From the IMG/VR virus record IMGVR_UViG_3300046355_000046, positions 1 through 64,000 of that record: DNA of 64,000 nt, one strand, 5' to 3'. Each line of letters opens with the position of its first letter. Within the stretch, counting starts at the first letter, position 1. This document shows, in pieces, positions 3,040 through 61,801 of this stretch. This DNA is from a virus. Made by a program: the position numbers and the translations under genes. The notes under the pieces were generated by a model. The model did not search any database and was not told where the DNA came from. It saw only the letters and a list, made by a program, of their open reading frames with translations.

Positions 3040-3055
3040 TTATAATACAAATACT

Positions 3056-19756: not shown

Positions 19757-19799
19757 TTTGTGGATAACTTATTTGGCACTACAATTGTATATCTTTGTA
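19757..19799 (+). promoter_or_regulatory. Promoter region before the 19836 gene (TAnnTTTG box and sigma-54-like element)
   Basis: TATCTTTG at 19790-19797 is a perfect match to the Bacteroidota -7 box TAnnTTTG. The TTTG sequences upstream (19757-19760 and 19772-19775) are not at the usual 19-21 base spacing. The overlapping TTGGCAC...TTGTA (GG-N10-GT) is one base short of a sigma-54 GG-N10-GC element. Transcription would begin about 30-40 bases before the ATG. Confidence 0.5.
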
Positions 19800-19835
19800 T
19801 ATTCGTAACAGATTAATCTAAAAATTTAAAAAACA

Positions 19836-32900: not shown

Positions 32901-34600
32901 AGTCTAGTACATTCCATATCAGTAGAGGATACTTTTATTTATTTAACTCTGGTGTACGTGACTTCTTTGTAGAATCTGAAGTAAATGTAGCCTATAGAGA
33001 TTGGGAAGATCGTCCAGAAAAACGTCACTATGATAATAACGGACTAACTGATTTAAGTACTTTATTTAGATCAGATGTAATTAAAGAACCTAACTACTAT
33101 AAATATGATTACTCATTAAGTGTATCTAAGTTATTTAACTCACAGATCACTTGGGGTAATGTGCTTGATAGAGACTTTGATCCTAAGAAAGCACAGACTT
33201 GTTACAGCTATTATCCTAATAGAGTTATTTATTCTCTTCCACAACAAGATGAAAGTAAGAAAGATAACTGGAGAGTTTATCTAGCTAACAACTATAAAAC
33301 ATTTGGTAGCCGTGTTACATCAATTAAGTCTGTTAATAAAACAGGTGCTTTATTTATGATGGCTTATCAGAGTCCTATGCAGTTTATGGGTGTAGAGGAA
33401 CTTAAGTTAGATGGCACTGGTGCTAAGATTACTATTGGAGATGGTGCATTGTTTAGCGGTCCACAACAACTTCAAGCATTAGTAAATGCTGATGAATCAT
33501 TTGAGTATGCATCATGTCAAAGTAAGTATGCTACATTAGGATGTACGCATGGTGTATTCTGGGTAAGTCAGAACCAAGGAAAGATATTCCAGTATGCTGG
33601 ACAGCTTAAAGAAATATCTAGAGAAGGAATGAAATGGTGGTTTGCTAAATACCTACCTTCTGAATTACTTACTAAGTATCCTAATTATCCATTGTACGAT
33701 AACCCTGTAAAAGGTGTAGGGGTACAGATGACGTATGACAATACTAATGAGATAATCTATATCACTAAGAAAGACTATAAGCCTTTATTTAATGATATGG
33801 GTCACGATGCTGATGGTAAGTTTTATAGAACTATTAATGGTCTTAAGACATACTATGACTTTAATAATCCATTAGCATTTGAGAATGCATCATGGACTAT
33901 TAGTTATGATCCAAAGAATCAAACATGGTTATCATTTCATGACTGGAATCCAACGTTTGTGATTCCAGGAAAGGCTCATTTCATGAGTGTGGATACCAAC
34001 TCTATATGGAAGCATAATGTACGTTGTGATTCTTATGCAAATTTCTATGGTAAAGACTATCCATTTGAAGTGGAGTTTATCTCAGCTACAGGCCAGCAGG
34101 TTAACTCAGTAAGAAACATTGAATACTTACTAGAAGTATATAAGACGCATAATAACTGTGCAGATAAATTCCATGTACTAGATCAAAACTTTGATCAAGC
34201 TATTATTTCTAACTCTGAGCAAGTGTCTGGTTTACTTGAGTTAAACGTAAAGCCTAAAAACAATCCTGTTGCAGCTTTATCTTATCCTCAGATTCAACCT
34301 AACTCTATAAAGATATTATTCTCTAAAGAAGAAAATAAATATAGATTCAATCAGTTCTGGGATATAACAAAGGATCGTGGTGAGTTTAATACTCTTACTA
34401 ACCAGTCTATGTTTATCACAAAAGCTAATGGTTACCAGTATGAGATTAATCCTCAGTATGTTGATTACGGTAAAGCAGCTTTAGAGCGTAAGAAGTTTAG
34501 ACATCACGTAAATAAAGTATGGTTAAGAAAATCAAAGAGTGGTGATCTAAAAATGTTGTTTAAGATATCTAATCAAAAGTTAACAGTATCACATAGATAA
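29981..34600 (+). CDS. Tail muzzle / P22 gp10-like stabilisation protein, 1,539 aa
   Basis: The N-terminal pattern is that of crAss-like tail stabilisation proteins: NLFNKGMVKDYNETFVGEG, RNAVNNSHDGQIGVIGNEPS, TMIGCIHLTDDMWAIFTTDD, EIGIFDE and VYWSDGLNPDRFMDLENPP. This suggests a beta-propeller-like start followed by long beta-rich domains and one Ala/Gly/Ile-rich hydrophobic stretch (residues about 650-760). Proteins of this kind form the tail tube or muzzle below the ring proteins. Gene order (two adaptors, then this, then cargo) agrees. It is large for the P22 relative but in the range expected for crAss-like muzzles. Confidence 0.78.
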   Translation: MAENTQNPTSTTNLFNKGMVKDYNETFVGEGLWTHARNAVNNSHDGQIGVIGNEPSNLHCVTLPYTMIGCIHLTDDMWAIFTTDDVNSEIGIFDESQCSYTKKVNSPCLNFKRSNLITGTSRRRYDCERPVYWSDGLNPDRFMDLENPPFKYTESISNGCVTKLYTTELNCEEIRLTSLITHPCIILEKGKASGTLPNGSYQIAIAYTINKVKVSDYLGLSEVQSLFSHQNLSSSLEVKITTIDKDFEEFELVILAQINGQTIARRVGYYSTNQGTIYLDALSNDFETIPISQIVVRTEPIEKSDAIYTVNNYMLRVGTYSKTKFNYQPQANSIQARWVAVEYPANYYVKGGNNTGYMRDEQYAFFIRWVYNTGERSESYHIPGRVAMSTDTALANGTDAYENQEGIQLEKWQASNTATVETTTPSVLADGGRVVAKGKMGYWESTELYPSNRVDIWGNLCGQPIRHHKFPDVTITGGDVVNHFTNDGNNIVILGVEFHNITKPVDVNGNVITSIVGYEVLRGSREGHKTVISKGLINNMREYSVPNQTNITGLYQNYPFNDLREDSYLTSQEQLGDNGGPDASSSKLNGYKKDVLSFHGPDVTFSTPYLSSSEVKLYQEIYGESNGRFETPYKHPKFKLPTNFTDLLTNVLAAVATIAKLVGALAGADTKVEFQGTDDIPLTQSLLAPHRAEAISGAIFGLANGWIGTTGIVGGNEAASVKRTFANSAITVANAVVLGAMATIQIDVTSEQFMKLILAIIPYKQYAAQYVAHGYYNKSRTTLEGNRRRKIVESSYVNSDIQSFTANSQNYMVNNFNRGKFVIIKTNADVNNPTTVDNSRFLISEKDGSLYSTYQSTVSGHYGALKISLPSQYGQLDSLKQIPISFCIEDVTTSNTTKITSNVYFGGDVYINRFTEKNSMLFFNTWLYGEPNGAELDYTMYFSMPYPRFWINNTNLSGGLFKLASQFRVLDHRKSSTFHISRGYFYLFNSGVRDFFVESEVNVAYRDWEDRPEKRHYDNNGLTDLSTLFRSDVIKEPNYYKYDYSLSVSKLFNSQITWGNVLDRDFDPKKAQTCYSYYPNRVIYSLPQQDESKKDNWRVYLANNYKTFGSRVTSIKSVNKTGALFMMAYQSPMQFMGVEELKLDGTGAKITIGDGALFSGPQQLQALVNADESFEYASCQSKYATLGCTHGVFWVSQNQGKIFQYAGQLKEISREGMKWWFAKYLPSELLTKYPNYPLYDNPVKGVGVQMTYDNTNEIIYITKKDYKPLFNDMGHDADGKFYRTINGLKTYYDFNNPLAFENASWTISYDPKNQTWLSFHDWNPTFVIPGKAHFMSVDTNSIWKHNVRCDSYANFYGKDYPFEVEFISATGQQVNSVRNIEYLLEVYKTHNNCADKFHVLDQNFDQAIISNSEQVSGLLELNVKPKNNPVAALSYPQIQPNSIKILFSKEENKYRFNQFWDITKDRGEFNTLTNQSMFITKANGYQYEINPQYVDYGKAALERKKFRHHVNKVWLRKSKSGDLKMLFKISNQKLTVSHR

Positions 34601-43652: not shown

Positions 43653-46600
43653 ATGGCTGAAAATCTTTTTGAACAAGACTACTTATCCAACCTACCTGAA
43701 AATGCAATTGAAGGTGTGCCTAGTACAGAAGAGATGCCAGTTTATGACACTCCTGTAGAGGCACCTAGTTCTATTGATCAACCTGAGCAACAGATTGCTA
43801 CTGGTCAAGAACCTCCAAGATCTAAATATAAATCTTATGATGAAGCTCTTAATGCTATTAATGTAGAAGCTAATAGGGTATTTCCTCTTGCTAATGAATC
43901 TTGGATAGATCCACGTGTTGTACCATCTGAAACTGCTAAAAAATATAGAGGTACAAAATACGGTTATATTTATGGTATAGATAATGATAACTTTTATGGT
44001 GAACAAGAAGGTGGATTTGCGACATTTGGTAAAGGTATAGCTAGACTTGGTCTTGGTATTCTTACTAAGACTGGTGAAGGTATTGGCTATATTGGTGGCT
44101 TGCTTGACTCAGACAACTGGGATGCAGATATAATTACTAAGGCTTCAGATAATGGCTTTTCAGAAATATTTAGAAATATTGATGATAAAGCTAAAAATGA
44201 TTGGCTACCTACGTATCAAGAAGCTGCAGATAGAAATAAAGGTTTTTGGTCAAAAGCATTTACAGATGGTGATTTCTGGATGACAGATGCTGTAGATGGT
44301 TTAGCATTCCTTGCATCAGCGTGGATTCCTGGTCTTGCGTTAAGTAAGTTACAGTTAGGAGCTAACTTAGCTAGACTTGCTTCTGGTATGCGTGTGGGTC
44401 TTGGAGCTGCAGAAGCTGCTATTGAAGGAGCTGGTGCTGCTGTAAACTATACTAAGAGTGCTGCTAACGCATTTAGTAAGTTAGATAAGTTTAATGCTTG
44501 GGCTTTAGCTACTTCTTCAGAATCTATGTATGAAGCTAAAGCTGTTAAAGATAAGGTGATGGACTCTTTATCTTATGATGAGTTTGGTAGAACAAGATAT
44601 AAAGAAGACGGTACTCCTTATACAGATGAGGAGAAGAAACGTATATCAGGAGCTGCTGCTCAAAATACTTTCATAATGAATGCAGGTTTATTGGCTGCAA
44701 CAAATGCTATTGAACTTAAATGGTTAGGTCAGGCATTTGGTAAAGCTCCTGGCGTAGCTGGTGCTGTAACAGGTGCTGCTCAGTTTGGAGAAAGCATGGG
44801 AGTAAGAACTGCTACATCAGGTATTGAGCGTTTCCTTAACTCTAAAAAAGGTGCGTTTATAAGTGGCATTGGTCAAGGTGTTCTTGCAGAAGGATATGTA
44901 GAAGAGAATGGTCAGTTAGCTATTCAGAGAATTAACGAGGCTTACGGAACAAGTGGACGTATGGCTGACTTATCTAATACTAGTGAAGTATTTAAACAAT
45001 ACTTTAAACAAACTGGAGATGCTTTAATGGGTAAAGATACAGAAGCATCTATTAGTATTGGTATAGGTGGTATCTTAGGAGGTATTGGTGCCGGTGTTGG
45101 TGGAGTGAGACAGTTTGGTCGTGATCAAGCTGCAACTCAAGCTGCAGTTGAAATGTATAATGCAGCTCAAGAGAACTGGCTTAAGTTTGGTAACATCTAT
45201 AAAACTAAGTTAGTAGATAGTACTGATGCTGAAGGCAATCCTGTAAAAGTAGAAAAGGTAGTTTATGATGATAACAATCAACCAGTTCTTGATGAAAAAA
45301 GAATTGCTGCTGTTACATCATCATTTAGAGCTGTTAACTCTGCATTAGAAGAGTCTACTAAAGTAGATGATAAGTTTAAGAAAGATGCATTAAGAGATAC
45401 AGCATTTGCACAGTTTGTTATAGCACATATTAATGCTGGTGTAGAAGGAACTATTGATCAGAAGTTAGATGCTGTTAGAAAGTCTGATCCGGAACAAATT
45501 GCTAAATTAGGTTTTGTTTTAGGTGAAGACATTGATACTCAGATCAATAGATACAAAGGACTAGCTGCTTCTATCATTAAACAGAACAAGTTAATGAATG
45601 CTGATATCATGTATGATGGTACTCAGGATGACGTAGCTCGTAAAAATAAAATGGTTAATATGGCAGCTGAACAAGCAGCTTATAAGACTATTCTAAATGA
45701 CCTGTTAACAGAAGTAACTGAAGTTAAGAATGATTTACTATCTACTGAGAACTCTTCGTTATCAGATGGTATTGTAGAACAACTTAATGAATATCAGTAT
45801 AGAATTAAATCTCAAGAAGAAGTTATTGCAGCTATGCAAAAGAAAGGGTTTGTCACAAACCTTGAAACTGTAGCTCAAGAAGTTCTTGATGGTTTAAAGA
45901 AAAGCTTTGACAAGCTTCAAAAAGATAATGAGACAACTATTGCTACTCTTGAAAAAGATGACAATGGGTTCTATAAATATGAGAAAGAAGATCGTAATCA
46001 ACCTGGTGTTTCTGATAATCTAAATAAGAAGATCAAACTTAAAGGTGAGTTACAAAATCATATTAAAGGTATTGGTTTAGAGTGGGCTAAGTATGCAGAT
46101 ACTATTAACGGTAAGGAGAACTTCTTACAGTCTTTATCTGATGAGATGCTATCTGTAGTAGATAGTCAACTTAAAGCTGAGGCTGCTAAACCTAAACCTC
46201 CAGTTGCTATAGCTCCTACACAATCAAAACTTTCTGTTACATATAAGACAGAAGATGATGTAGAGATTACTACAGAGTTTGTAACTGGTGATATTTATAA
46301 TTTAACAGATACTAATAGCGGAGAGGTTACTAAGCTTGAGGTAATGGCTGTCAATGAAGAAGATAGTAGTGTTACCATTAAGATCAATGATGGTGATCCT
46401 GCTGTAATTGATGCAGAAGAGTTAGCTACTACTTTAGCTAATGAAGGCTGGACAAAACAAGCTGTAAAGAAGACTCGTAAAAAAGCTGTTAAGAAAGACG
46501 TAGATGAAGATGGTCAAGAAGAAACAGAAGAGTTAGAAGATAATGAAACCGTTACAACGTTTAGTAAAACTAACAAGCTTCCTAAGTTTGAAGAAGTAGG

Positions 46601-49600
46601 CTTTAATAAAACGTTTGGTCGTCAATACTTAGATGAAGAAGATACTGTTCCTAATGAAGAGAATGGTACTGATAGATTCTTTAAGTTTACTGCTAAGTTT
46701 AACTTAGCTAGAAGAGGCTATGCTCTTCAAGTAATTACTTCAGAGAATGATACGTTTGGTATCCGTGATACTGAGTTTAACGCTAATGATATTAAAGTTG
46801 TAGTTGTTAAGAAACAACCTCAAGCAGATGGTAGTGTTAAGTATGCATATGTAAATGTTGACAATGAGCTTATTCCTGAAGGAGAGCAAACTAAAGATAA
46901 TATTATCTACCGTTCACTAGCTGGTATTGATAGCTGGACAGTTGAGCGTGTAAGAAGAGAATACACTGTAGACTCTGAAACTACAGATGAAGAGATCCAA
47001 GAAGCTATTGATGCTGAGAAAGCTTATCAAAAAACTTTATTGGATAACACTAAAGATGGAGGTAACGTATACTTAGATGTAGTTACTGCTATGCCAGGTA
47101 TTCAAAGAATTGAGTATACATCTGCAGTGGGAGAAGATGGTAAACGTCAACTATCTAAAGCAGAAGTAGAAGGTCGTGTTATTACTAACAACCCAGACTT
47201 TACTGATTTAAGAAGTGTAAGCAATCCAGACGTAAATATTGGTCTGAGAGTTTCTACTGGTCGTGGTGTTGTAATGGCGGGTGTTCAAGCAGGTCGTGTG
47301 GTTATGCAAGAATATACCATGGAGAACGGTAAGAAGATCTATGGAGATAAAGTAATTCGTGTATTTAACCGTGACTTAACTGATATAGAGAAGGATAACC
47401 TTATCAAAGCATTTGTAAGACTATCTGAACTATATGTGCAGAAGTATGGATATAATGCTGCTTCTGGTAAAAAGAAAATAAAACCTTTATCTACAGCTGA
47501 CCAAGCTGAGATGAGTATTATTGAAGATTACTTAAAGCATATCTTAAACTGGAGCCGTCCTGTAAAAGGAAAGGTTTCAGATAAATACTTCTGGGTACAG
47601 AGTGGTCTTCATAGAGGTAACCTTGTTATTCCTTTTACTAAAGAAGAGATTCTTAAGAATAGAGACAAGTTAGTTAGAGGTGTAACTCACCACGTTAATA
47701 ATAAAGCTTTACAAGATAATGATAGCTTTACAACTATTAAGTTTGTAAAGGGTAAGGCTGTATTAGATAAATCATACGATACGTATGAAGAATACTTATT
47801 AGCTAAGAGAGAAGATGGTACAACACCTCCAGTTTATTCTTCATTACCATTATATGATTCTAATACTCCTCAGCGTACTCAGGTTCAGATTATCTGGAAA
47901 GATCCATCTTTAGTTGAGCCAGAAGCTGAAGAAGAAGTAAAAGCATCTAAGAAGAAGCCTATTGCTAAGATCAAAGGTTCTTCTGAATTAATGGATGATA
48001 AGATTGATGAGTTCTTAAATGGTGAGCGTACTAAGATAGAAGTTAATGGTGTTACTGTCAGCTACGAAATGGAGGGTGGTGGTATTATTATTAAAGTTCA
48101 GAAAGAAAAAAACATTAAAAAGTCTAAACCTTTTGCATCACAAAAGGAAATAGCTGATAATAGAAGTGAAATTCTTAAGAGCATTACTCAAGCAACTGGA
48201 TACATATATGGTGCAAACCGTGGATTAAAACAACTTATTGCTCAAGTTACACAAAAAGCTGCCGAAGCTAAAGTTACTAAAGCACCAACTACTTCAGTAA
48301 CTCCTCAAGTTGCTGATCGTGATACAGAGACAGATAATGATTTAAGATTTAAAAATATAGTAAGATCTATATTTGAAATAAAGGAGGGTAATATGGTAAG
48401 ACCAGATTACTTGAAACCTGAAAATATAGAAATGTATGAAGATTCTGATGTTGCAGGATACATACTAAAGATAAATATAAATGATATAGATTATGTTGCC
48501 ATAATGCCTGAGATGCAAGATCTTAGGTTTGATTCTATTGAAAGACTTCAACAGTTTGATAATTCTGGACTTAAAAAAGTTTCAGATGAAACAAAAAATA
48601 ATATACTAAATGGTTACACTGATATATTTGATCTTGAACTTGTAGATATTGTAACAAAAAGATTTGGAAAAGAAAATGCAGATTTTGTTTTAGATTATCT
48701 TACTAAGAATAAAGATGCAAAACAAAAGTTAACTCTTTTAGAAAAGGGTGCAACAACCTCTGTATCTGCTCAAGATGGTCCTTTCTTTAGTGTAGAAGAA
48801 GCTGTAGCAAATGCTGTACCTGAAAATGGTAAGTTATCTGCTGTAGTATCTCAAATGAATGTTAAGACTAAAGAAGTAGTTAAGTTAGCAGAAGCTACTA
48901 TTGCTATTCCTTCTGGTAATATAAATGCAGCTAAAGCATTGTTAACCAAGGCTTTAATTGCACAGCTGGATATTGATTCTGAAGAACCTCCTTTCCGTTT
49001 AGATATTGGAGAGATGGAAGCTACTGAAGACTTTGGTAAGCTTACTAAGTTCATGAAAGAAGTTTTACCTATGTTCCCTGTAAAGAAGGTAGGTCATTTA
49101 ATTCATGGCAAAGGTTTAGGAGCATTCATGAGAGGAGCATTACACATCTATGAAAATGCTACTATTGGTACTGGTTTCCACGAAGCCTTTGAAGCTGTAT
49201 GGGCTTCATTCTTAACACAAGATGAGAAGCTTGATTTAGCTAATGAGTTTAAAGCTCGTGAAGGATCATTCTATAATAAGTTTACTAAAGAGACAAAGCC
49301 TTATTCAGAAGCTAGCATGTACGATGTACGTGAGATGTTAGCAGAAGAGTTTCGTGATTATATTCTTTTAGATAGATCTACTGGTAATAAGATTGCTAAC
49401 TTCTTTAAGAACTTATGGAAAGCTATCCAGGCTTTATTCAACATTACTCCTAAAGAAAAAGCTGAGATGAATAGTATCATTAATGATCTATTCAAGAAGA
49501 TTGGAACTGGTGGGTTTAAAAATGCTAGATTTATTAAAGATCGTTTAGCTTCTGGTATAGCTTACAAGGCTGTAGCAGACTTAACTCAAAAGGATACGGC

Positions 49601-52600
49601 TGATCTATTAGAAGGATTGAACTACTACTTCTTTACAGAGTTATTCAAACGAGGAAATAATATAGATAGCATCTTAGGAAGTTTAGACAAGAAACAGTCT
49701 AATGCTTTATTAAATAATTTATGGAATAAATCTGTAGAGCAAGTATCTAATAACTTGTCTTTGATTAGTCCAAAGATTAACTCTACACTTAATGCTAACA
49801 TAGATGAGTTCTACAGAGAATTCAAAAAGAACTTAGACCGTTATGGTGTAATCTTCTCTGAAATAGAAGAAGATGAGAACAACGTTACAGATACTTTAGG
49901 TATCAGAGACGCTATTACAATTGACCCTAGAAGCATGACGTCTACAAACGTTATGTTATTACTTACTTCTTTACCACAGACTACTGTAACAAGAGGTAAA
50001 ACTGTCCTTGTAAAGAACGATCTTAACCAACCACGTTTAGCTAATACAGATAGAGTACATACAACCCTACTTAACGAACTTAGTAATGTAGTGAGTATTG
50101 TAGATAAAGACGGTGTTCGTAAAAATACTTTAGATCTAATGATGGAAAAATTAGATAAGAAGTACAAAACTGCAGACAATAACTACCGTGAAAACTATGG
50201 CTGGGTACGTAACTTAAAGCTACGTCTTAAATATGAGAACAACTTAGGAATTAAAACACCTGCTTCTACATTAAATAAAGAAGACGTTTTATTAAGAGTT
50301 TCATTTACTAAGAGTTTTAGCAATGCTAGATTCTCTCCAGAGAAACTTATTGTTTCTGATGAGGGATACATCTACAACACTAATCCGCTTATTAATGTAA
50401 ATGAGGATAGAATCCGTAATGAGTGGGCTAATAACTTAAAGGTAGCTGTTCAGAACAAACAGACTAACTTAGTTAAGATTGATAGCTCTGGTCGTATGAT
50501 GATCAATAGAAAGTCTGATGACTATATTGATCTAATGGATGAAGCTAAAGCTAGAAGTACATATGACTTGGCTACAGCTTTAAATGCACTAAGTATATTA
50601 GGTATTGAGTTTACTGCTACCTTAAATGAACTAGCACAGTTTGAGAACAGTATTCGTGAGCAAACTCTTCAGATTCTAGACGTAATGAAGTCAGGAGAAA
50701 TAGATGATATTGCTGATCTATTTGGTAGAAACGTAGTAGGTGGTAGAATTAACACACTTATTGCTATTGAATCTAAGTATAGCAGTGAAGATAATATCTT
50801 AAGTTACAATAATGCAGAAGGTCAGCAACAGTTTAGTGTTGGCCAACCGTCATTGTTAAGTAACATGATTAACATTTTGAATACAGTTAACTCACAAGAG
50901 GAGCTTATTCAGACTGCACCATGGTTAGGATTTATTGATGAGGAAGGTGAAGTAGTATTCAATGCTTACCAAACTAACTCAGAGCTTTTAAGAAAAGGCG
51001 GACGTTTGTTTGATATCAACGGAAAGCGTAAGAATAATACAGAAATTAGCTATCATGTTATTTCTGGTTTAGGTATTACGGAAGTTGATGGTAATAACAC
51101 AGCCAAACTTCAGTTCCCTGAGCGTGTAGCTAACAAGATTCACTTTTTGTTAAATAATGTTGTGTTCTCTAACATCAACTCAGATAAGAGTACAGAATAT
51201 GGTATTGGAATTCCTGGTAAGCTTATGGTAAGCAGAAGGGATATTCAGAAAATGATGACTACAGAAGACAAGAGTATTGTGGACATGTACGTAAATCATT
51301 TATATGATGAGATGTATGCTGCTACTATACAAGCTGATAGTCCAGTAGATATTCAATACTACCGTGATGGTGTATTTAACTTAGGTCACTTCAGAGATAT
51401 CATTGGTAAAGACATGATTGCTAAGTTCAATCAAGATGTCATTACTAACGAGATGGACTTTGAAGAGTTTATTGAAGAGAATAGAGAGTTAATTGAAGAT
51501 AAGATTACTACTTACATCAACAATAAGATTGAAGATACAGTTGCTTTCTTAAAAGACTTAGACTTGTTCATCAAGCCTGATACCTTTAAGAGTGACTTAT
51601 ATATTACAGATGCTATTGATAATGATGGCTTAGATGAAATGTTAGGTATCAAAGATACTCAAACATTAAACTACAGAACTGGAGGATATGATTCTGAGTT
51701 AAAGAGTCGTAGTGGATATACAGAAGATAATATCAGAACCATTGCTGCTATTCTTTCTTTAAACGAAGAATTACTTTTAACAGAGCAGCATAAGTTGATC
51801 TACGGTCACCCTGCCTTATATAAAGACTTACCTAAGCGTGCTAATGGTGCTACTTCTACTAAAGAAGCTTTTGTAGAAGATAGTGATGTTGTTGCTTGGA
51901 TGGATAATAACATGGTACGTAATGATGGCAAACTTCGTTCAGAAGAGACACATCAGACTATCAAGAACATATCATTTAAAGACATGGATGTAGTAAGTGC
52001 ATTCTATAATGATATTGCAGAAAGTACATATGCTGAAATGATTGCTTCTGGTATTACTAAAGAAATAGCAGAGAAAAAGATTGGTGCAAGATTTAATGAG
52101 CAAGGTCAGATCTCTGGATTGATTTTAAACAAGAAGAAAGAGTTTACAGGTATGATTAAAGCATACATGAACTTAAATGAAGCTGATGCCATGGCTATGG
52201 GTTTACCAGACGTAATTAGAGATATTCTATTTATGAGTGGTAAGTTTACTAGTCAACGTGAAGCTCAATGGGATTATGAGATTGCTTATGAGACTTTAGT
52301 TCGTTCTGGAGCTATGCCAAATGCTAAAGGTGAGACTATTAAAAAGTCAGATCCTCGTTATAAGTCTGCTAACAAAGCTCAAATAGAAGCTGCTAAAGAA
52401 ACATTTGATAAAGGAAATCCAGGGTATGTATTTGAGGTATTAAAGCCACAGTACTTTGGATATGCTCAGACAGATAATGTAACTCATCCAGTATTCTTGA
52501 AGCATGCTTTACAACCTAAGTTCTATCGTCACGTAGAAGGTAATCAGTTTGAGAAGCTTTACATAGCTGCTCAGAAAGATAAAGTAGATGTAATTGGTTT

Positions 52601-55600
52601 TGAGTCAGGTGAAAAAGTGGGTAACGTAACTACTACGGATGGAAACTTCTTACCAATCTATAATGAGGCTGGAGAGATTAATGTTGTAACATCAAACAAA
52701 GGATATGAGTTACCAACTGAATTGCCACGTCAGAGTCTATACAGTAGATTCTACGGAATTCAAGTTGAGCAATCTAGTAAGCCTAAAAAGTTCGTTGTAA
52801 AAGGAACTCAAATTACTAAACAAGTAATGAGTAACTTCTATGAGAATGGTGCTCCTGTTAATCCAACTATTGGCGGTCTTATCCAAGAGTATAACGAGAC
52901 TATTCGTGAGATGATGAGACTTGGTAAAGAAGAGCTTCTTAAAGAACTTGGTCTTGAGAAAAAAGGTGACTTCCAGTATGAAGCTAAAGATATCTCTAGA
53001 TTAGTTAAGATCTTAAGAAGAGAAGCTGAGAGCAGAGACTTACCAGATAACATGATTAATGCTATCAACTACATTGTAAATGAAGATGATACACAATCAT
53101 TAGAGTATGAGTTTGATACTTTAATCAACCGTGATAAGATAGATAATATTCTTAACTCAATTGTGGACAGCAGAATTATCTCTCAGAAAATGAGTGGTAA
53201 GTCTTCACCGCAAGTTGCTAGCACTACATATGAAGCTGCTCCAAGAAACTATGTTTATCTTAAAGATGGTATTTACAAGACACTTACTAAGTCAGAACTT
53301 AAAGGATTAACAGAAGAAGAGAAAGCGTCTATTCGTATGCAGTCTTCAGATCTTAAGTTTTACCACTCTAAAGATGGTAAGATTCAAGGTGTAGAGATGT
53401 ATATTACATGGCCCTTCACTGAGGTTACTCCAGAAGAGTTAGGATTAAAATTAGTAAATGGTATTTACTTAATGCCGGAAGGTGGTATCAAAGGTATTGA
53501 TAATGAGTTACTTAAGGCTATTGGTTTCCGTATTCCTACACAAGGTATGAACTCAATTGAGAGTATTATCATTAAAGGATTTACTCCTATTACTAATGGT
53601 GATATGATTGTAGTTCCTTCTGAGATTGTTGGTAAAGCTGGATCTGACTTTGATATAGATAAGCTTAATATCTATTTAGGTAATTACTTTGTAGATATTC
53701 TTGGTAAGGATTACTCTGGTAAAGACTTTAGAGACTTCATGATTAATGACATGATCTCTTCTGGAGCTGATCAAATATATGCAGATAACGTAATGAACGT
53801 TATTACATCTGAGCAGTTCAAGCAGATTAATGAATCTACATATACAGATAGAGGTAAGATTGTTAAAGGAGCTAAGACTAGCTTAAGTGACATTAGTGCA
53901 TCTAAAGAAACACAAGAAGACTTAGCATTTATTAAGGCTAGTCTTTCTAGATATAATGCTTCTGTAAAAGGACAAAAGGTTATCCGTTATATCAAGCCTA
54001 CACTTGGTACTAAAGAAAGCTTACAGAATAAGTTAATCAACATAATGTCTGAACTTATTCTTAGACCAGAGAACTATGCTCAGCTTGTAGCTCCAAATAC
54101 AACAGATACTCTTAAGGATCTTGCAGAAGAGATTAAAGGATGGAAAGTTGATGCTGGTACTAAACAACTAGAAGATGAGAAGTCTCCTACATACTTAAGA
54201 ACATTTATTGGATCTAATAGTATCCGTGAGCGTTACTTAACAGCTAAAAGAATGGTAGGTATTGCAGCGGTACACTCTACGTTCCATGTAATGGCTCAAG
54301 TTAGTGGTCTTAAACTAAATAATAGATATAGTTCTAAGAGCATCTATTACTTAAACGCTAAAGGAGAAGATACTAAAACAGTAAACATCAAGCTTACTCA
54401 CCACGGTAGAGATGAGAATGGTCTATACTCAATTGGGCATAGACTAGACAAAGCAGGTGCATTTATTAGTGAACTTATCTCACAAGCATTATCTGGTTTT
54501 GTGGACGGTGCTAAAGATCCATTTGTATTTGACTTAAACTTTTCATTAAATACAGCTAGTACTTGGTTCTATTTACAACATCATGGTGTACCAGTAGATG
54601 AGATAGCTTACTTCTTTAATCAACCTATCTTAGATAGCTTGTTCAAAGAAACATCTAAGAATAGATCTTCATTCAAAGTGATTAACGGTGAGAACCTTAC
54701 TAGAAAAGAATTATTCTATAAAGTTATCGCACCTTACTATAACAAAGTAGTAGGTGGTGATTTAGAAGCTATGCTTGCTGGAGCAGCACAATCATCTAAG
54801 GCTCAAGAAGATGCGTTACAAAAACTTATCTTAGCTGAGCTTAATGAGATTAGAGATAGCCTTGAAACATTTGATAGTAAAGAATTAATTAAAGCTATCA
54901 AAGATGGTAGTAATGCTGATGCAAGATTACAGATTGCTGTAATAATGGATTATGTAGAGTATGAAGCTCAGGCTAGATTGATGTCTAACTTCATGCAGGC
55001 TATTGGATATGATACTAATAAGACCAAAACTGTACAAGAAAACATGTTACAAATTGGTCGTTGGGAAAGATCTAAACAAGAGAACTTTGTTAATAATCCG
55101 GATTCTATTCTAGAAAGTACTTTCTTAGGAGAGATGAAAGATCAAAAAGAAGATATCTTTAGCATGTTTAGAAACTTCTTTATTACATTATCTCCTGAGA
55201 TCCAAGAAGTGTTCCAGCCATTGTATGATAAGATAGATAATCCAGAGTTCTTTATTATGAAGGATGATGCTATCAACTTAATTAATAGATACCAAAACTT
55301 TGTAATTGCTTACTTACTTCATACTACACCGTATATGAATACTGAAGGAAAGCAAGAAACATTAAATACTTTATATCAAGACTTGTTTACTGGAGAGAAT
55401 TCTTTTGCTGGTACATTATACAAGTATAAGAATTCAGAAGATCCAAATATCTCTGACAACTTGATTATCAAGGAGTTAGTACCGTTGATGACAGATGATG
55501 CTACTAAGACAGATAATATCATGTTGTTCAGAAATAAGATAGATACTTTCCAGATAAATAATGTCATAGAAGCTTATAACAACTTAAGAAGTTATGGTGA

Positions 55601-56381
55601 GAAAACAGCTGATGATAAGCTAGTAAAATTTGCTGATGACCTAGCTAAATTTAGTATATTGCAGTCAGGTTTACAAAGTAGTTTCATTGACTATAAAAAG
55701 GTATTAAGTACTGAGATTTACTCTGAGCTTGTAAAAACAATCTTAGATAGATTTAAATTAGACCCATCTATATCAGTAGATCAAGTATGGAAATCTTTCC
55801 ATCAGAACAACTGGTATAATAGATCAATTGTAACTAAAGCACCAGCTTGGTTAAGAATTAAGAGTGGTCAGTTGGCAATTAGTCCATTAAGTTCTGTTAT
55901 TGTTAATGACTATTTGATCAAGTATGTACGTAATCCTAAGATCAGTAAAGAGGAATTAAAAAAGATGAAGAAAGATAAGACATTGGCTCAAGCTTTCCAA
56001 CCTGTATTATTCCAAAAGACTGAACAAAAAGATAAGAAAGGAAAGATTATATACATGCCTATTGGTAAAGCTGGAAACAGAAACCGTATGCTTGAGATCT
56101 ATAAAGATGATCAAGAGTCTATTTTACCAGGTAATGTAATGCAGATAGAAACACAAGATGCCTTAACTGCAGCTGAAGGATATGTATCTGCTGAAGACTT
56201 GATGAGACAACCAGGGTTTATTAAAGCCATGGGTGAGTTAGCAGGTGAAAAGACTCAGAATAACGGTCTAAAAGCTCTAGCTGAGAATGCCTTAAAAAGC
56301 TTGAATGAAAGTAAGGAAGTAGATGATACTATCTCTAAAAAAGAGGATGAATCTGTTAAATGTAATAAAAAAGGTAAATAA
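43653..56381 (+). CDS. Giant virion RNA polymerase polyprotein, 4,242 aa
   Basis: Residues about 215-275 and 467-486 are Ala/Gly-rich hydrophobic segments, perhaps membrane-interacting during ejection. A basic/acidic linker (KKTRKKAVKKDVDEDGQEE) is near 937-966. H1843-E-A-F-E1847, followed by MLAEEFRDYI, is a zincin-like site lacking the second His. The polymerase lies in the C-terminal third: K3050-GTQ-x-x-K3056 is a candidate for the basic barrel motif; R3293-IPT is followed by GFTPITNGDMIVV and SD3332-F-D3334-I-D3336 with KLN. That order matches R-x-P-T ... N-A-D-F-D-G-D of cellular RNAP beta-prime and the DFDID site of crAss-like virion RNAPs. At about twice the size I recall for the phi14:2 enzyme, it is probably a fusion with cargo protein. 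Confidence 0.88.
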   Translation: MAENLFEQDYLSNLPENAIEGVPSTEEMPVYDTPVEAPSSIDQPEQQIATGQEPPRSKYKSYDEALNAINVEANRVFPLANESWIDPRVVPSETAKKYRGTKYGYIYGIDNDNFYGEQEGGFATFGKGIARLGLGILTKTGEGIGYIGGLLDSDNWDADIITKASDNGFSEIFRNIDDKAKNDWLPTYQEAADRNKGFWSKAFTDGDFWMTDAVDGLAFLASAWIPGLALSKLQLGANLARLASGMRVGLGAAEAAIEGAGAAVNYTKSAANAFSKLDKFNAWALATSSESMYEAKAVKDKVMDSLSYDEFGRTRYKEDGTPYTDEEKKRISGAAAQNTFIMNAGLLAATNAIELKWLGQAFGKAPGVAGAVTGAAQFGESMGVRTATSGIERFLNSKKGAFISGIGQGVLAEGYVEENGQLAIQRINEAYGTSGRMADLSNTSEVFKQYFKQTGDALMGKDTEASISIGIGGILGGIGAGVGGVRQFGRDQAATQAAVEMYNAAQENWLKFGNIYKTKLVDSTDAEGNPVKVEKVVYDDNNQPVLDEKRIAAVTSSFRAVNSALEESTKVDDKFKKDALRDTAFAQFVIAHINAGVEGTIDQKLDAVRKSDPEQIAKLGFVLGEDIDTQINRYKGLAASIIKQNKLMNADIMYDGTQDDVARKNKMVNMAAEQAAYKTILNDLLTEVTEVKNDLLSTENSSLSDGIVEQLNEYQYRIKSQEEVIAAMQKKGFVTNLETVAQEVLDGLKKSFDKLQKDNETTIATLEKDDNGFYKYEKEDRNQPGVSDNLNKKIKLKGELQNHIKGIGLEWAKYADTINGKENFLQSLSDEMLSVVDSQLKAEAAKPKPPVAIAPTQSKLSVTYKTEDDVEITTEFVTGDIYNLTDTNSGEVTKLEVMAVNEEDSSVTIKINDGDPAVIDAEELATTLANEGWTKQAVKKTRKKAVKKDVDEDGQEETEELEDNETVTTFSKTNKLPKFEEVGFNKTFGRQYLDEEDTVPNEENGTDRFFKFTAKFNLARRGYALQVITSENDTFGIRDTEFNANDIKVVVVKKQPQADGSVKYAYVNVDNELIPEGEQTKDNIIYRSLAGIDSWTVERVRREYTVDSETTDEEIQEAIDAEKAYQKTLLDNTKDGGNVYLDVVTAMPGIQRIEYTSAVGEDGKRQLSKAEVEGRVITNNPDFTDLRSVSNPDVNIGLRVSTGRGVVMAGVQAGRVVMQEYTMENGKKIYGDKVIRVFNRDLTDIEKDNLIKAFVRLSELYVQKYGYNAASGKKKIKPLSTADQAEMSIIEDYLKHILNWSRPVKGKVSDKYFWVQSGLHRGNLVIPFTKEEILKNRDKLVRGVTHHVNNKALQDNDSFTTIKFVKGKAVLDKSYDTYEEYLLAKREDGTTPPVYSSLPLYDSNTPQRTQVQIIWKDPSLVEPEAEEEVKASKKKPIAKIKGSSELMDDKIDEFLNGERTKIEVNGVTVSYEMEGGGIIIKVQKEKNIKKSKPFASQKEIADNRSEILKSITQATGYIYGANRGLKQLIAQVTQKAAEAKVTKAPTTSVTPQVADRDTETDNDLRFKNIVRSIFEIKEGNMVRPDYLKPENIEMYEDSDVAGYILKININDIDYVAIMPEMQDLRFDSIERLQQFDNSGLKKVSDETKNNILNGYTDIFDLELVDIVTKRFGKENADFVLDYLTKNKDAKQKLTLLEKGATTSVSAQDGPFFSVEEAVANAVPENGKLSAVVSQMNVKTKEVVKLAEATIAIPSGNINAAKALLTKALIAQLDIDSEEPPFRLDIGEMEATEDFGKLTKFMKEVLPMFPVKKVGHLIHGKGLGAFMRGALHIYENATIGTGFHEAFEAVWASFLTQDEKLDLANEFKAREGSFYNKFTKETKPYSEASMYDVREMLAEEFRDYILLDRSTGNKIANFFKNLWKAIQALFNITPKEKAEMNSIINDLFKKIGTGGFKNARFIKDRLASGIAYKAVADLTQKDTADLLEGLNYYFFTELFKRGNNIDSILGSLDKKQSNALLNNLWNKSVEQVSNNLSLISPKINSTLNANIDEFYREFKKNLDRYGVIFSEIEEDENNVTDTLGIRDAITIDPRSMTSTNVMLLLTSLPQTTVTRGKTVLVKNDLNQPRLANTDRVHTTLLNELSNVVSIVDKDGVRKNTLDLMMEKLDKKYKTADNNYRENYGWVRNLKLRLKYENNLGIKTPASTLNKEDVLLRVSFTKSFSNARFSPEKLIVSDEGYIYNTNPLINVNEDRIRNEWANNLKVAVQNKQTNLVKIDSSGRMMINRKSDDYIDLMDEAKARSTYDLATALNALSILGIEFTATLNELAQFENSIREQTLQILDVMKSGEIDDIADLFGRNVVGGRINTLIAIESKYSSEDNILSYNNAEGQQQFSVGQPSLLSNMINILNTVNSQEELIQTAPWLGFIDEEGEVVFNAYQTNSELLRKGGRLFDINGKRKNNTEISYHVISGLGITEVDGNNTAKLQFPERVANKIHFLLNNVVFSNINSDKSTEYGIGIPGKLMVSRRDIQKMMTTEDKSIVDMYVNHLYDEMYAATIQADSPVDIQYYRDGVFNLGHFRDIIGKDMIAKFNQDVITNEMDFEEFIEENRELIEDKITTYINNKIEDTVAFLKDLDLFIKPDTFKSDLYITDAIDNDGLDEMLGIKDTQTLNYRTGGYDSELKSRSGYTEDNIRTIAAILSLNEELLLTEQHKLIYGHPALYKDLPKRANGATSTKEAFVEDSDVVAWMDNNMVRNDGKLRSEETHQTIKNISFKDMDVVSAFYNDIAESTYAEMIASGITKEIAEKKIGARFNEQGQISGLILNKKKEFTGMIKAYMNLNEADAMAMGLPDVIRDILFMSGKFTSQREAQWDYEIAYETLVRSGAMPNAKGETIKKSDPRYKSANKAQIEAAKETFDKGNPGYVFEVLKPQYFGYAQTDNVTHPVFLKHALQPKFYRHVEGNQFEKLYIAAQKDKVDVIGFESGEKVGNVTTTDGNFLPIYNEAGEINVVTSNKGYELPTELPRQSLYSRFYGIQVEQSSKPKKFVVKGTQITKQVMSNFYENGAPVNPTIGGLIQEYNETIREMMRLGKEELLKELGLEKKGDFQYEAKDISRLVKILRREAESRDLPDNMINAINYIVNEDDTQSLEYEFDTLINRDKIDNILNSIVDSRIISQKMSGKSSPQVASTTYEAAPRNYVYLKDGIYKTLTKSELKGLTEEEKASIRMQSSDLKFYHSKDGKIQGVEMYITWPFTEVTPEELGLKLVNGIYLMPEGGIKGIDNELLKAIGFRIPTQGMNSIESIIIKGFTPITNGDMIVVPSEIVGKAGSDFDIDKLNIYLGNYFVDILGKDYSGKDFRDFMINDMISSGADQIYADNVMNVITSEQFKQINESTYTDRGKIVKGAKTSLSDISASKETQEDLAFIKASLSRYNASVKGQKVIRYIKPTLGTKESLQNKLINIMSELILRPENYAQLVAPNTTDTLKDLAEEIKGWKVDAGTKQLEDEKSPTYLRTFIGSNSIRERYLTAKRMVGIAAVHSTFHVMAQVSGLKLNNRYSSKSIYYLNAKGEDTKTVNIKLTHHGRDENGLYSIGHRLDKAGAFISELISQALSGFVDGAKDPFVFDLNFSLNTASTWFYLQHHGVPVDEIAYFFNQPILDSLFKETSKNRSSFKVINGENLTRKELFYKVIAPYYNKVVGGDLEAMLAGAAQSSKAQEDALQKLILAELNEIRDSLETFDSKELIKAIKDGSNADARLQIAVIMDYVEYEAQARLMSNFMQAIGYDTNKTKTVQENMLQIGRWERSKQENFVNNPDSILESTFLGEMKDQKEDIFSMFRNFFITLSPEIQEVFQPLYDKIDNPEFFIMKDDAINLINRYQNFVIAYLLHTTPYMNTEGKQETLNTLYQDLFTGENSFAGTLYKYKNSEDPNISDNLIIKELVPLMTDDATKTDNIMLFRNKIDTFQINNVIEAYNNLRSYGEKTADDKLVKFADDLAKFSILQSGLQSSFIDYKKVLSTEIYSELVKTILDRFKLDPSISVDQVWKSFHQNNWYNRSIVTKAPAWLRIKSGQLAISPLSSVIVNDYLIKYVRNPKISKEELKKMKKDKTLAQAFQPVLFQKTEQKDKKGKIIYMPIGKAGNRNRMLEIYKDDQESILPGNVMQIETQDALTAAEGYVSAEDLMRQPGFIKAMGELAGEKTQNNGLKALAENALKSLNESKEVDDTISKKEDESVKCNKKGK

Positions 56382-56383: not shown

Positions 56384-59300
56384 ATGGGTTGTAGTATAAT
56401 TCGTAATCCTGAGACTAAACAAATAGAAAGAGTATTAGCTCCTAATGGAAAAGAGTCTAGACTCTATGAAGATATTCTTTCTATTATAGGATCTAAAGCT
56501 AAAGAGGATGCTCTTAAGCTTTGGGCACAAGTGTATACCACTAAGTTTAAAGACTGGTTTGGTGATTGGGAAAGACTTGAGCGTATTAGACGTGAAGACC
56601 CGGGTATGGATGCCGGTACATTTGAGACTGTTAATGCGTTTGTATCTAAAGATATAGATGAAAACGGTGAACCTAAAATCTTAAATGGTTTATTTACTGA
56701 TAGAAATGGTAATGTAAGAATGTTCTATAATGCTTTAGAAACAAATGAAGCTCAGTTAAATGAAGACTATTTGTTTAATACTCCATTTACTACAGAGATT
56801 CGTGAGCTTGAAGAAGACTCAGAAGCTTTCTTTAGACGTAATCGTGAGCTTGCATCTATTGGTAGCCCTCAACAATATTCAGAGTATCTTAATACTGTGT
56901 TTCCTGGTAGTAGGATAAAGAGTATTGTATATCATGGTACTTTCTTAAAAGACTTAATTAAAGACGGATTCAAAGGATACGTTACTTACTTTAGTACTTC
57001 TAAGAAATACTCAGATCAATTCAGCTTTGGTAAAGATGAGAACATAATTAGAGCTGTTGTAAATATTCAAAATCCTTACACCGCTCCATCTGAGATTGCT
57101 GATGTACCAGAGGAAGTACATGATACAGATGCTTTTACTGCTCCTAGAGTAGTGAAATCTAGAAACTCTGGATATGATTCAGTTGTTGGTAAAGATGCTG
57201 GTCAAGAAAAAGGTGACACTATTGCTGTGTTTGAACCACAACAGATTCTTGTACTAGGTTCTAAAGAAGACATTGAAGGTTTTAGAAGATTTGTATCTCC
57301 ATCTTTAACTGCAAAAGATATTGAAGAAGGTACAAGACCAGAGGATGTTAAGAATAAGATTACCAAATTCTTAGAAAAGATTGGTGTAGCTATTCAGTCT
57401 GTAGATGTAATCAGAGATGCTCAAGGTAATATTGTAAAAGATGCAGCTGCTAAAGCTAGCATGTTAAATAAAATCATTCAGGTAGTAGATGGTTTAGAAT
57501 CACTAGATACACTTCCTGAAGAAGCAGCTCACTTTTTTGTAGAGATGTTAGGCCCAGGTCATCCTTTGTACAAAGAGATGGTATCTAAAATTACAGGATA
57601 TAAGGTATATGCACAAACTGTAGAACAGTATAAAAACAAAGCTGCATACCGTAATGCAGATGGTACTATTAATTTTGATAAGATTAAGAAAGAAGCTATT
57701 GGTCAAGTGATAGCTGAACATATTCTTAAGATGCAGACTGGCAATGAGACTCAAGAACGTATGAACTTTTTGATGAATTGGTGGACTAAGCTTTGGGACT
57801 TTGTTAAAGAGATATTTAATAAGTCTGAAGACAATCCATTTGAGACAGCTGCAGAAAATATCTTAGATGGTAATACTGAGTTCTTAGATACAGATATTCA
57901 GTTAGACGAAGAGTATTATCAGTTAGTAGATCCTACTCAAGGATTAAAGATGGATCAGACTAATATTGAATTAGATAATAGTATTGATCCAAGAACTGGT
58001 CAGAAGAGACACATTTATAAATACAAAGGTGAGAATGCTAAAGGGTCGGTTACTTCTACATATGTAGATAGATGGCTTAAGAAGATATTTAGATCTGACC
58101 AAAGATCAGAAAAACAAAAGCTTATTGATTTAAATAAAGCTGAGTTTGGTGATGTAATCCATAAGCAGATTCAGAATATTGTTAATAGCTGGACTTATGA
58201 TGATGGTAGCAAGCGTGATGTACAAGGTCCTATAAATATCATTCTTCCAAACGCAGTGTACACAAGATTGAATACTTACATTCAATCAGTAATGGCTCAG
58301 TATGAACCAGGTACTCAGTTTATGTCTGAGGTTAAAGTGTTTGATCAGAAAGCTAAGATTGGTGGAAGTATTGACTTAGTTGTTATCCAACCTAATGGTG
58401 TTGTAGACATCTATGACTGGAAATCACAAGAGGTGGGTAAGACACAAACTGACTTAAAGACTTACAAAGAAACTATGTATCGTATACAGCTAGAGAACTA
58501 TCGTAAGATCTTACAGCTGCAGTATGGATTCCAGAAGTTTGGAAAACTTCGTGCTATTCCTATGAGAACTAAGTTCACTATAAAGAATGGTCAGATTGAT
58601 ACTATTAAAGAATTAGAGGTTGGTAATATTGACCCTACTTTAATTCCTGATGATAAAAGCTATTTATTACCTGTTACTCTTCGTACAGAAAGTACCGGGG
58701 ACAGTCAAATGGATAGTCTATTAGAGAAACTAAATGGTATCTATGACAAGATTGATAAAACAAGATACACTAAAGAAGAGCTTTATAAGAAACGTGAAGA
58801 GCTAGCTCAGCTTAGAGTTGCTATCAGAGATTTGCAGCTTAAGAATAAAGTAGATCGTTTAGTAGAGTTAGGTCTTTTGGAGTATAAGAAGTATGCTGAA
58901 ATGCTTGATAATAAAACATTAAGCGGTAAAGAACTTCAGGATGCTATTAAGATCTTACAAGTATTTAGTGAATCAGGTGTATTGCTTTATGACTTAAGAG
59001 AACAATACTTTAACGTAGCACAAAACAGTAAAAAGAAAGGTGCTATAGCTGAGTATGAAGATCTTAATAAAAGATTCTTGACTATGACGTCAAGAGTAAC
59101 AAAGCTTATTGCTGACTTAGATATTTATAGAAAAGAACAAGTAGACAACTTGGCTAAGAAGAATGGTATATTTAATATCCTAGATGCTGAAGCACCTCTT
59201 AGTACATATAGAGGTTTACTTAGTGCGTTAAGTAATATACCACAAAGAAGCTTTAGATTATTCTCTAAGATATTACGTGTAGTTCAGAATAACAGAGATG

Positions 59301-61801
59301 CTAAGTTTGATTCTACAGCAGCTAAAATGGTTCTTCTAAAAAAGAAGTTTTTAACATGGGCTAGTGCTAGAGGGATATCTGCAGATAAAGCCATGGAAAT
59401 GATTCTTCAGATAGATGAGAAAGGTAACTGGAATGGTAACTTCTTAAATAAATATAAGTCAGAGTTCAGAGAACAAAAGAACAAAGCCATATTATCTGGT
59501 AACAGTAAGTGGATTGTAGATAATATGAACTATGATAAAGAGAAGTATGAGGCTGCAGAAAAAAGAACTATAGAAAATTTCAGAAGTGTTGGTTATGCTT
59601 TAGATGAAGAAGCTAATGAGAAGATAGTACAAAAAAAGATTAAAGAGTGGGCTCTTAATCATAAGGTTGTTAATGATAATGGAACTGTTAACATTAAAGC
59701 TTTGCTTAATCCTACTAATGGTTTTTTAATACCGGCTGATCAATGGCTTACAGATAAGTGGTTAAACCTACAAAAGCCTGAGAACCAAGCACTTAAAGAT
59801 GTGTATGATTTCTTCCAATCATTAATTGATGAGGCAGAAGATTTAGGTATGTTAGATAAAAATTCTAAAAACTTTATTCCGTCTGTATTTGCTTCTAAGA
59901 TTGATCAGTTTGCTTTTGGGGATGTAAGAAATCTATTCTCTACTAAAGGGGTATTTGAAAATCTACAAGTAGATGCAGGTAATACATATACACCAGAGAT
60001 TGATCCAACTGATGGTACTATCATTAATCGTATTCCTGTATACTTTACTTCAGATATTGGCGTGAAGAATGAAGAAACAGGAGAAGTAGACTACTCTAAA
60101 AAGTCTAGAGACTTATTTAAAGTGTTTGCTGTATGGTCAGCTCATATGTATAACTATGAAGCTATGCATGAGATTGAAGACTCTTCTCAAATGTTATTAG
60201 ATGTTGAGCGTAATAAGCGTAGCTTGGTTACGGATCAGTTTGGTAATGTTAAAATAGAAAATGGTAAAGCTAAGTCTGCAGATAATAATGACAGAAATGC
60301 TAAAATCTTTGAAGAGTTTGTAAACTTCTATTTATATGACAGAGTTGGTGGTAAGTTTAACGATGCTAAACTTACAATACTAAATAAAGAATACTCATTA
60401 TTAAAGACAGGACAAGCTGCTATGAGATTCTTTAGTCTTAAGACGTTAGCATTAAGTCCATTGTCTGGTACAGCACAGTTTGTTGGTGGTACAGGTAATG
60501 CTTTGTTCATGGCTCAGAAAGGTATTTACTTTACTAATAAGACATGGGCTAAAGCTATGTACACTGCATCAGGAAGTAAGAAAGCTTGGGCCGCATTAAA
60601 GTTCATGAACGTACTTGGTGAAGGTAATACAAATGTTATGATAGAAGAGCTAAGCTTATCTGCAACTAACAGAGTATTGACTACAGAAAATGCATACATC
60701 ATGATGCGTATGGGTGATAAGGCTGTACAGTACCCAGTAGCTATTGCTATGATGATGGAGCATATGGTGCAAGACGGTAAGATTGTTAGTATACAGCAGT
60801 TTGTAAAAGCTAAGTATAACTACAATACAGAGTTTTATAACTTACCTAGTGCTGAGCGTAAAGCTTTGATGAAGAAGATAGACCAAGAAGTTGGTGAGCT
60901 TCAAGAAAAAGAAAGTGTTTACGTTAAAGGTGTAATGGATAAAGATGGTAATTTTACTATACCAGGAATAGAAAAAGATAGTGAAACATTTTCAGACTTT
61001 AGAAATAAGATTAAGGGTGTTAACAAGCGTATTGTTGGTAACCAATCTAGAGATGATATTAACAATATTAGAACTACTCTATTAGGTCAAGCTTTTATGC
61101 AATTTAGATCATGGATGCCAGAGATGGTTGAAGAAAGACTTGAAGGACTTAAGTATGATGATGAATTGCAGAACTGGACATATGGTAAGTTTCACTCATT
61201 CTTTGGTCATGTGTTTAGTAAAAAACTTCCTAAGCTTCTTAAAGCTATTATGACTGGGTTTGGAGATGACGCTGTACTATTAGCTAAAGAAAAGTATGAA
61301 GAACTTAAACGTGAAGCATATGAGAAAGGAGAAGACTTTACTATTACTGAAGGAGAATTTGTAGATATTCATATTGGTAATCTACGCTCTATGGTAGCTG
61401 AACTTATGACACTTACTGCATTTGCTTCTGCTGTTCTATCTGTTGTATCTGGAGATGATGGTAATAGAAGAAACAAAGGAATGAAACAGTATTTATCTAG
61501 AGCTCTTAAAAAGTACTACAATGAATTTGCATTTTACTACAACCCTATTGAACTAACTAGATTAATGAGATCTCCTTTACCTGTTGTAAGCTTAGCTGAA
61601 GATATGGTTAGATTCTTAGGAGCTTTAAATAAAGAAGCTGCAGGTCAGTTAGTTGGAAATAAAGATTGGACAGAATCAGCAAAACCATTGAAGTACTTTA
61701 CTAAGATGGTACCAGTAGCTAAAGAAGCTATGTTACTATTTGCCACCTATGACGATGACTTCAGAAAAGATTGGGGTATAAAAATAGAACCAGGATACTA
61801 A
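56384..61801 (+). CDS. Giant polyvalent protein: ART-like domain plus RecB-type nuclease, 1,805 aa
   Basis: The N-terminus has LKLWAQVYTTKFKDWFGDWE, a phage polyvalent-protein signature. Residues about 180-300 look like an ADP-ribosyltransferase: VYHGT (Y183-H184-G185-T186), TYFSTS (201-206) and FEPQQILVLGS near the end. Around residues 380-480, LPEEAAHFFVEML and EAIGQVIAEHI form a helical domain. Residues 593-706 are a PD-(D/E)XK nuclease: H593 (FGDVIHKQIQ), E649, GGSID664, D678-W-K680 and Q702-LENY706. The remaining 1,100 residues are helical and probably structural. It begins two bases after the polymerase stop, so the two are made together and probably packaged together. Confidence 0.82.
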   Translation: MGCSIIRNPETKQIERVLAPNGKESRLYEDILSIIGSKAKEDALKLWAQVYTTKFKDWFGDWERLERIRREDPGMDAGTFETVNAFVSKDIDENGEPKILNGLFTDRNGNVRMFYNALETNEAQLNEDYLFNTPFTTEIRELEEDSEAFFRRNRELASIGSPQQYSEYLNTVFPGSRIKSIVYHGTFLKDLIKDGFKGYVTYFSTSKKYSDQFSFGKDENIIRAVVNIQNPYTAPSEIADVPEEVHDTDAFTAPRVVKSRNSGYDSVVGKDAGQEKGDTIAVFEPQQILVLGSKEDIEGFRRFVSPSLTAKDIEEGTRPEDVKNKITKFLEKIGVAIQSVDVIRDAQGNIVKDAAAKASMLNKIIQVVDGLESLDTLPEEAAHFFVEMLGPGHPLYKEMVSKITGYKVYAQTVEQYKNKAAYRNADGTINFDKIKKEAIGQVIAEHILKMQTGNETQERMNFLMNWWTKLWDFVKEIFNKSEDNPFETAAENILDGNTEFLDTDIQLDEEYYQLVDPTQGLKMDQTNIELDNSIDPRTGQKRHIYKYKGENAKGSVTSTYVDRWLKKIFRSDQRSEKQKLIDLNKAEFGDVIHKQIQNIVNSWTYDDGSKRDVQGPINIILPNAVYTRLNTYIQSVMAQYEPGTQFMSEVKVFDQKAKIGGSIDLVVIQPNGVVDIYDWKSQEVGKTQTDLKTYKETMYRIQLENYRKILQLQYGFQKFGKLRAIPMRTKFTIKNGQIDTIKELEVGNIDPTLIPDDKSYLLPVTLRTESTGDSQMDSLLEKLNGIYDKIDKTRYTKEELYKKREELAQLRVAIRDLQLKNKVDRLVELGLLEYKKYAEMLDNKTLSGKELQDAIKILQVFSESGVLLYDLREQYFNVAQNSKKKGAIAEYEDLNKRFLTMTSRVTKLIADLDIYRKEQVDNLAKKNGIFNILDAEAPLSTYRGLLSALSNIPQRSFRLFSKILRVVQNNRDAKFDSTAAKMVLLKKKFLTWASARGISADKAMEMILQIDEKGNWNGNFLNKYKSEFREQKNKAILSGNSKWIVDNMNYDKEKYEAAEKRTIENFRSVGYALDEEANEKIVQKKIKEWALNHKVVNDNGTVNIKALLNPTNGFLIPADQWLTDKWLNLQKPENQALKDVYDFFQSLIDEAEDLGMLDKNSKNFIPSVFASKIDQFAFGDVRNLFSTKGVFENLQVDAGNTYTPEIDPTDGTIINRIPVYFTSDIGVKNEETGEVDYSKKSRDLFKVFAVWSAHMYNYEAMHEIEDSSQMLLDVERNKRSLVTDQFGNVKIENGKAKSADNNDRNAKIFEEFVNFYLYDRVGGKFNDAKLTILNKEYSLLKTGQAAMRFFSLKTLALSPLSGTAQFVGGTGNALFMAQKGIYFTNKTWAKAMYTASGSKKAWAALKFMNVLGEGNTNVMIEELSLSATNRVLTTENAYIMMRMGDKAVQYPVAIAMMMEHMVQDGKIVSIQQFVKAKYNYNTEFYNLPSAERKALMKKIDQEVGELQEKESVYVKGVMDKDGNFTIPGIEKDSETFSDFRNKIKGVNKRIVGNQSRDDINNIRTTLLGQAFMQFRSWMPEMVEERLEGLKYDDELQNWTYGKFHSFFGHVFSKKLPKLLKAIMTGFGDDAVLLAKEKYEELKREAYEKGEDFTITEGEFVDIHIGNLRSMVAELMTLTAFASAVLSVVSGDDGNRRNKGMKQYLSRALKKYYNEFAFYYNPIELTRLMRSPLPVVSLAEDMVRFLGALNKEAAGQLVGNKDWTESAKPLKYFTKMVPVAKEAMLLFATYDDDFRKDWGIKIEPGY

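Follow-up and report, generated by a model that had tools for sequence, protein, structure and literature searches.

The stretch of viral DNA analyzed here (the window, 64,000 nucleotides of an 86,457-bp virus contig) contains a giant open reading frame, located at 43653-56381 on the + strand, which encodes 4,242 amino acids with no internal stops. An initial annotation had read an R-x-P-T ... DFDID series in this chain as the active site of a crAss-like virion RNA polymerase (RNAP), and had proposed that its doubled length, relative to the phi14:2 enzyme, reflected fusion to cargo proteins. This raised the question of whether so short a motif marks a genuine polymerase and, if it does, what the remainder of the chain contains.

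Catalytic motif and polymerase fold

The putative catalytic segment (53529-53660, + strand; residues 3293-3336), assigned from sequence and from the alignment of relatives, reads RIPT ... GFTPITNGDMIVV ... GSDFDID. RIPT starts at residue 3293 (codon at 53529), GFTPITNGDMIVV spans residues 3309-3321 of the 4,242-aa chain and DFDID occupies residues 3332-3336, with D3336 ending at 53660; the order originally described was exact to the residue, and all of its elements lie in the one ORF. The motif stretch aligned without gaps to phi14:2 gp66 (RIPNQG...GDTIVAYTEIPTKTGSDFDIDK, DFDID at 1361), within a 770-residue region of homology (E = 3e-18).

The first search for relatives used a pattern which itself contained the motif, and so was unable to test conservation of the Asp triad. 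The search was repeated with two patterns from downstream of the motif, FVDGAKDP and AYFFNQP. In 80 of the 80 loci found in this way, with 60 distinct motif stretches, R-x-P was followed by an in-frame D-x-D-x-D (78 DFDID, one DYDID and one DYDVD). The same R-x-P ... D-x-D-x-D arrangement was retained in phi14:2, crAss001, Fpv1 and cr4_1, relatives identified by whole-protein tblastn and then aligned, and the triad was also retained in cr108_1, where a group I intron divides its codons. Conservation of the triad thus extends from close relatives to distant ones.

Homology to gp66 runs along the length of that protein, beyond the motif alone, in both sequence and profile comparisons. Residues 2915-3685 matched the phi14:2 virion RNA polymerase structure 6VR4 in a sequence search (E = 3e-18). 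Using hhalign with a family profile built from 25 full-length relatives, residues 2086-4063 (49908-55841, + strand), which we take as the RNA polymerase part, aligned colinearly with gp66 223-2016 (E = 6e-60), and residues 2837-4162 aligned with crAss001 gp50 (E = 6e-42). Scanning the entire 4,242-aa chain with Pfam and PHROGs returned no meaningful domain, so these general libraries miss this polymerase family. Weak PDB matches of residues 4102-4145 to the ribosome-rescue factor ArfA were judged to be chance.

An AlphaFold2 model of residues 2760-3860, built from 63 sequences, had a pLDDT of 88.9 and a pTM of 0.87. When this 1,101-residue model, containing both barrel regions, was compared with 350,542 PDB chains by Foldseek, the sole significant match was 6vr4_A (E = 5.9e-34, probability 1.00), over 1,175 alignment columns. 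The TMq of 0.64 and rmsd of 7.2 for this match show divergence or domain movement. The next matches, which were non-significant, were mostly to the largest subunits of RNA polymerases I and II. The AlphaFold comparison that had been suggested for this protein therefore gave a model which, in the region of residue 3332, matches 6VR4, an RNAP with two barrels, and the chain is predicted to carry two double-psi barrels in a single polypeptide with a gp66-like fold.

Within the model, the catalytic barrel (DPBB-A) would correspond to residues ~3179-3349 (53187-53699, + strand), as placed by AlphaFold2 and the 6VR4 match. A strand-rich region at residues ~2932-3059 (52446-52829, + strand), with an invariant K2988 and a near-invariant K3056, is the candidate for the first barrel (DPBB-B) from the 6VR4 match. 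Downstream of the catalytic barrel, a VDGAKDP...TASTWF...GVPVDE...NQP segment (residues 3560-3700; 54330-54752, + strand) was conserved among the relatives.

DxDxD is by itself short and common, and could in principle have arisen by chance in an unrelated giant structural protein. The ungapped gp66 alignment, the 770-residue homology around it and the recurrence of R-x-P then D-x-D-x-D in every locus argue that it did not; with gp66 homology spanning nearly 2,000 residues and a unique fold match, the chance reading is refuted, and we give it practically no weight. The extreme divergence of the protein (19% identity in the structural comparison with 6VR4) might instead suggest a polymerase-like part which is catalytically dead and has only a structural or ejection role. 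This is very improbable, as the triad, the R-x-P, invariant Gly and Lys residues and the VDxAKDP...NQP segment are strongly conserved across very divergent relatives. The reading as a crAss-like virion RNAP was thus upheld by the 6VR4 sequence match, the gp66 profile alignment and the 6VR4 fold match alike.

Fusion to a cargo protein

The N-terminal half accounts for the length of the chain. Residues 97-610 (43941-45482, + strand) form a cargo module which matched phi14:2 gp67 53-524 (hhalign, E = 3e-23) and crAss001 gp47 83-735 (E = 7e-29), with hydrophobic Gly-rich segments at residues ~213 and ~467. Further along, residues 1796-1958 matched the C-terminal end of gp47 (hhalign, E = 1e-12). 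Together with the gp66 and gp50 matches, these results indicate that the window protein joins gp47/67 and gp50/66 in one chain. As the last gp47 match ends at 1958 and the first gp66 match starts at 2086, the approximate fusion junction falls at residues ~1961-2080 (49533-49892, + strand). The proposal that the doubled length reflects fusion to cargo was borne out, since the first ~1,960 residues of the chain are the counterpart of phi14:2 gp67 / crAss001 gp47, each of which has been reported as a virion protein.

The polymerase shares with phi14:2 gp66 (6VR4) colinear homology over ~1,980 residues, the same DFDID and the same fold, at ~25% identity. The gene order of cargo, polymerase and associated protein (gp67, gp66 and gp65 in phi14:2) is also common to both, but phi14:2 encodes gp67 and gp66 in neighbouring genes (1,797 and 2,180 aa), in contrast to the one 4,242-aa chain found here. 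The phi14:2 homologues are annotated in its record from MS/MS proteomics, and vRNAP activity, with DNA-dependent RNA synthesis and early transcription resistant to rifampicin, has been reported for this phage (PMC10136315). In crAss001, gp47 matches the N-terminal 600 residues of the window protein and residues 1796-1958, and gp50 matches the polymerase, but there the two are separate genes on opposite strands. Mass spectrometry identified the crAss001 homologues (gp47, gp50 and gp49) in virions (PMC10172136).

The fused form was seen in two named phages, gp33 of Flavobacterium phage Fpv1 (4,401 aa) and gp26 of the gut phage cr4_1 (4,491 aa, with TAG read as Q). Both are of the same size class, with a C-terminal polymerase and D-x-D-x-D in the same place, share 22-24% identity in the core, and are annotated only as structural or hypothetical proteins; the N-terminal half of Fpv1 gp33 gave no profile match. 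The closest named polymerase, at 28%, is that of Pipoluvirus cr108_1, whose chain is divided into 2,967 and 798 aa. The cr108_1 gene (MT774385.1) is interrupted inside the DxDxD codons by a group I intron at 19751-20069 (Rfam RF00028, 80 bits); the exons on either side read GSD and YDIDK, and the record annotates two separate hypothetical proteins. No introns or other Rfam families were found in the window.

Most complete ORFs of the relatives encoded 3.6-5.1 kaa in one chain. In a tree built from the core, in which long branches leave deep placement unsure, 56 of 61 informative sequences were fused, Fpv1 and cr4_1 included. The five split sequences were scattered, and the well-supported branches require at least four changes. 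In this sample the usual state is one chain of 4-5 kaa, and not the two-gene form of the characterized phages.

The virion RNA polymerase of phage N4 belongs to the T7-like family. As a functional analogy, N4-type virion RNAPs are likewise giant, injected and fused to virion domains, a metallopeptidase included (PMC5512222, PMC10770324). A distant two-barrel relative, P23-45 gp96, is an injected RNAP fused to the tail tape measure (PMC10770324).

A zincin-like domain before the junction

Giant RNAPs reaching ~6,000 aa have been described as a hallmark of crAss-like phages (PMC10136315), whose virion RNAPs have also been stated to be fused to large proteins with no known function (PMC10770324); the enzyme is therefore of a kind already known. 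Less well charted is the conserved zincin-like HExx[E/H] domain which immediately precedes the junction. Its core (residues 1788-1910; 49014-49382, + strand) contains HEAFE at 1843-1847 and E1894, and corresponds to the domain with HEAFH at the C-terminus of crAss001 gp47. In 57 sequences, H1843 and E1844 were invariant and E1894 near-invariant; at position 1847, 42 have Glu and 15 have His. The window protein has HExxE with the downstream Glu, and not the canonical HExxH found at the equivalent place in crAss001 gp47, cr108_1 and cr4_1.

AlphaFold2 modelled residues 1788-1910 confidently (pLDDT mostly >90), with a predicted order of helix, three strands, HE helix and E helix. Helix, three strands, HE helix and Glu helix is the topology given for zincin-like metallopeptidases in polyvalent phage proteins, and in N4-type virion polymerases such a domain is always fused to the polymerase (PMC5512222). 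Foldseek gave no significant match for the model of this region; its higher-probability non-significant matches include a DNA-protein crosslink repair protease (6mdx, 6mdw) and MATCAP. A Pfam scan of the 57 sequences gave scattered weak matches only, and neither Pfam nor PHROGs gave the window domain a name. Because these structure and Pfam searches fell below significance, the zincin assignment is a good lead and not an identification. No zincin or metalloprotease was reported for crAss-like phages in the literature searched, the phi14:2 structure and 2018 crAss annotation papers lying outside it.

In phi14:2 gp67 no counterpart of the zincin-like region was found; the phi14:2 cassette instead has HEIMH at residue 245 of gp65, with a weak SprT-like Pfam match. 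Fpv1 gp33 has its HExxH at the C-terminus (residue 4179), again with a weak SprT-like Pfam match. Such a motif is thus present in every polymerase cassette examined, but the chain which carries it differs.

A domain of this kind could process the giant chain, which would then be a polyprotein cut into cargo and polymerase halves, by this domain or by a host or phage protease, leaving a working enzyme of ~2,200 aa, as in phi14:2. The position of HExx[E/H] directly before the junction, its conservation, the polyvalent-protein topology of the AlphaFold2 model and the existence of the halves as separate genes in crAss001, phi14:2 and a few contigs fit such processing, for which P1 DdrB provides a precedent (PMC5512222). 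Against it, the second metal ligand is Glu in the window and in most of the other sequences, so that the HExxE form may be inactive as a peptidase, Foldseek found no significant zincin, and the vRNAP of phage N4 is packaged uncut although it has a metallopeptidase domain (PMC5512222). On balance we regard cleavage of this chain as unlikely. The broader proposal, that fused crAss-like virion RNAPs cut themselves through the junction peptidase, before or after injection, and so free the polymerase from its ejection partner, is somewhat less likely still. If true, it would parallel the N4-type virion RNA polymerases, which are unrelated and are also fused to metallopeptidases.

Genome setting and predicted role of the chain

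The giant ORF lies in a Crassvirales-type layout, in which a tail, muzzle and cargo block is followed by a transcription block. Upstream, with smaller tail proteins, is a 1,539-aa muzzle/stabilization protein of the crAss001 gp44 / phi14:2 gp71 class (29981-34600, + strand; phrog_37948, 1.5e-67), which marks a crAss-like virion block. Directly downstream, a 1,805-aa RNAP-associated protein (56384-61801, + strand) is related to crAss001 gp49 (E = 2.5e-9) and to a 1,714-aa cr108_1 protein (E = 2e-28). Residues 571-723 of this protein have a weak exonuclease match (PHROG 3953, E = 0.009), which agrees with PD-(D/E)XK domains reported in crAss-like transcription-block proteins.

The 86-kb record from which the window comes, probably a fragment, gave no match to a crAss-type MCP, TerL or portal. 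Among related genomes of 120-127 kb, a crAss001-like MCP and portal were present in five of five and TerL in four of five. Two tail-fibre-like ORFs (13356-15971 and 17034-18815) have ends (YSDARVKENI... and FSDIRFKNVL...) which by eye resemble the self-cleaving S74 chaperone domain. Just outside the window, a protein encoded at locus L175 (8006-8896, - strand) has a significant Pfam match to spore photoproduct lyase (E = 7.5e-12); a DNA-repair gene of this type is unusual in a phage.

The chain is almost certainly a crAss-like virion RNAP in which a gp47/gp67-type ejection cargo (residues ~1-1960, with a zincin-like end) is followed by a gp66/gp50-type polymerase (~2080-4200). Homology, fold, colinearity, triad conservation, the conserved fusion and the crAss-like setting all support this reading. 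From homology with characterized relatives, the chain would most likely be a virion protein packed in the capsid and injected, passing through the tail together with the DNA and partly unfolding, and would then refold in the host and transcribe early genes (PMC10172136, PMC10136315). Catalysis is predicted to depend on a metal held by D3332, D3334 and D3336; cleavage of the chain by the zincin-like domain would be a speculative further step.

These results confirm the use of a crAss-type injected polymerase in a divergent lineage of phages known from metagenomic data. To get through a narrow tail, a chain of ~470 kDa has either to unfold for the passage and then refold, or to be cut en route, and the zincin-like domain at the junction makes the latter option testable in cultured phages.
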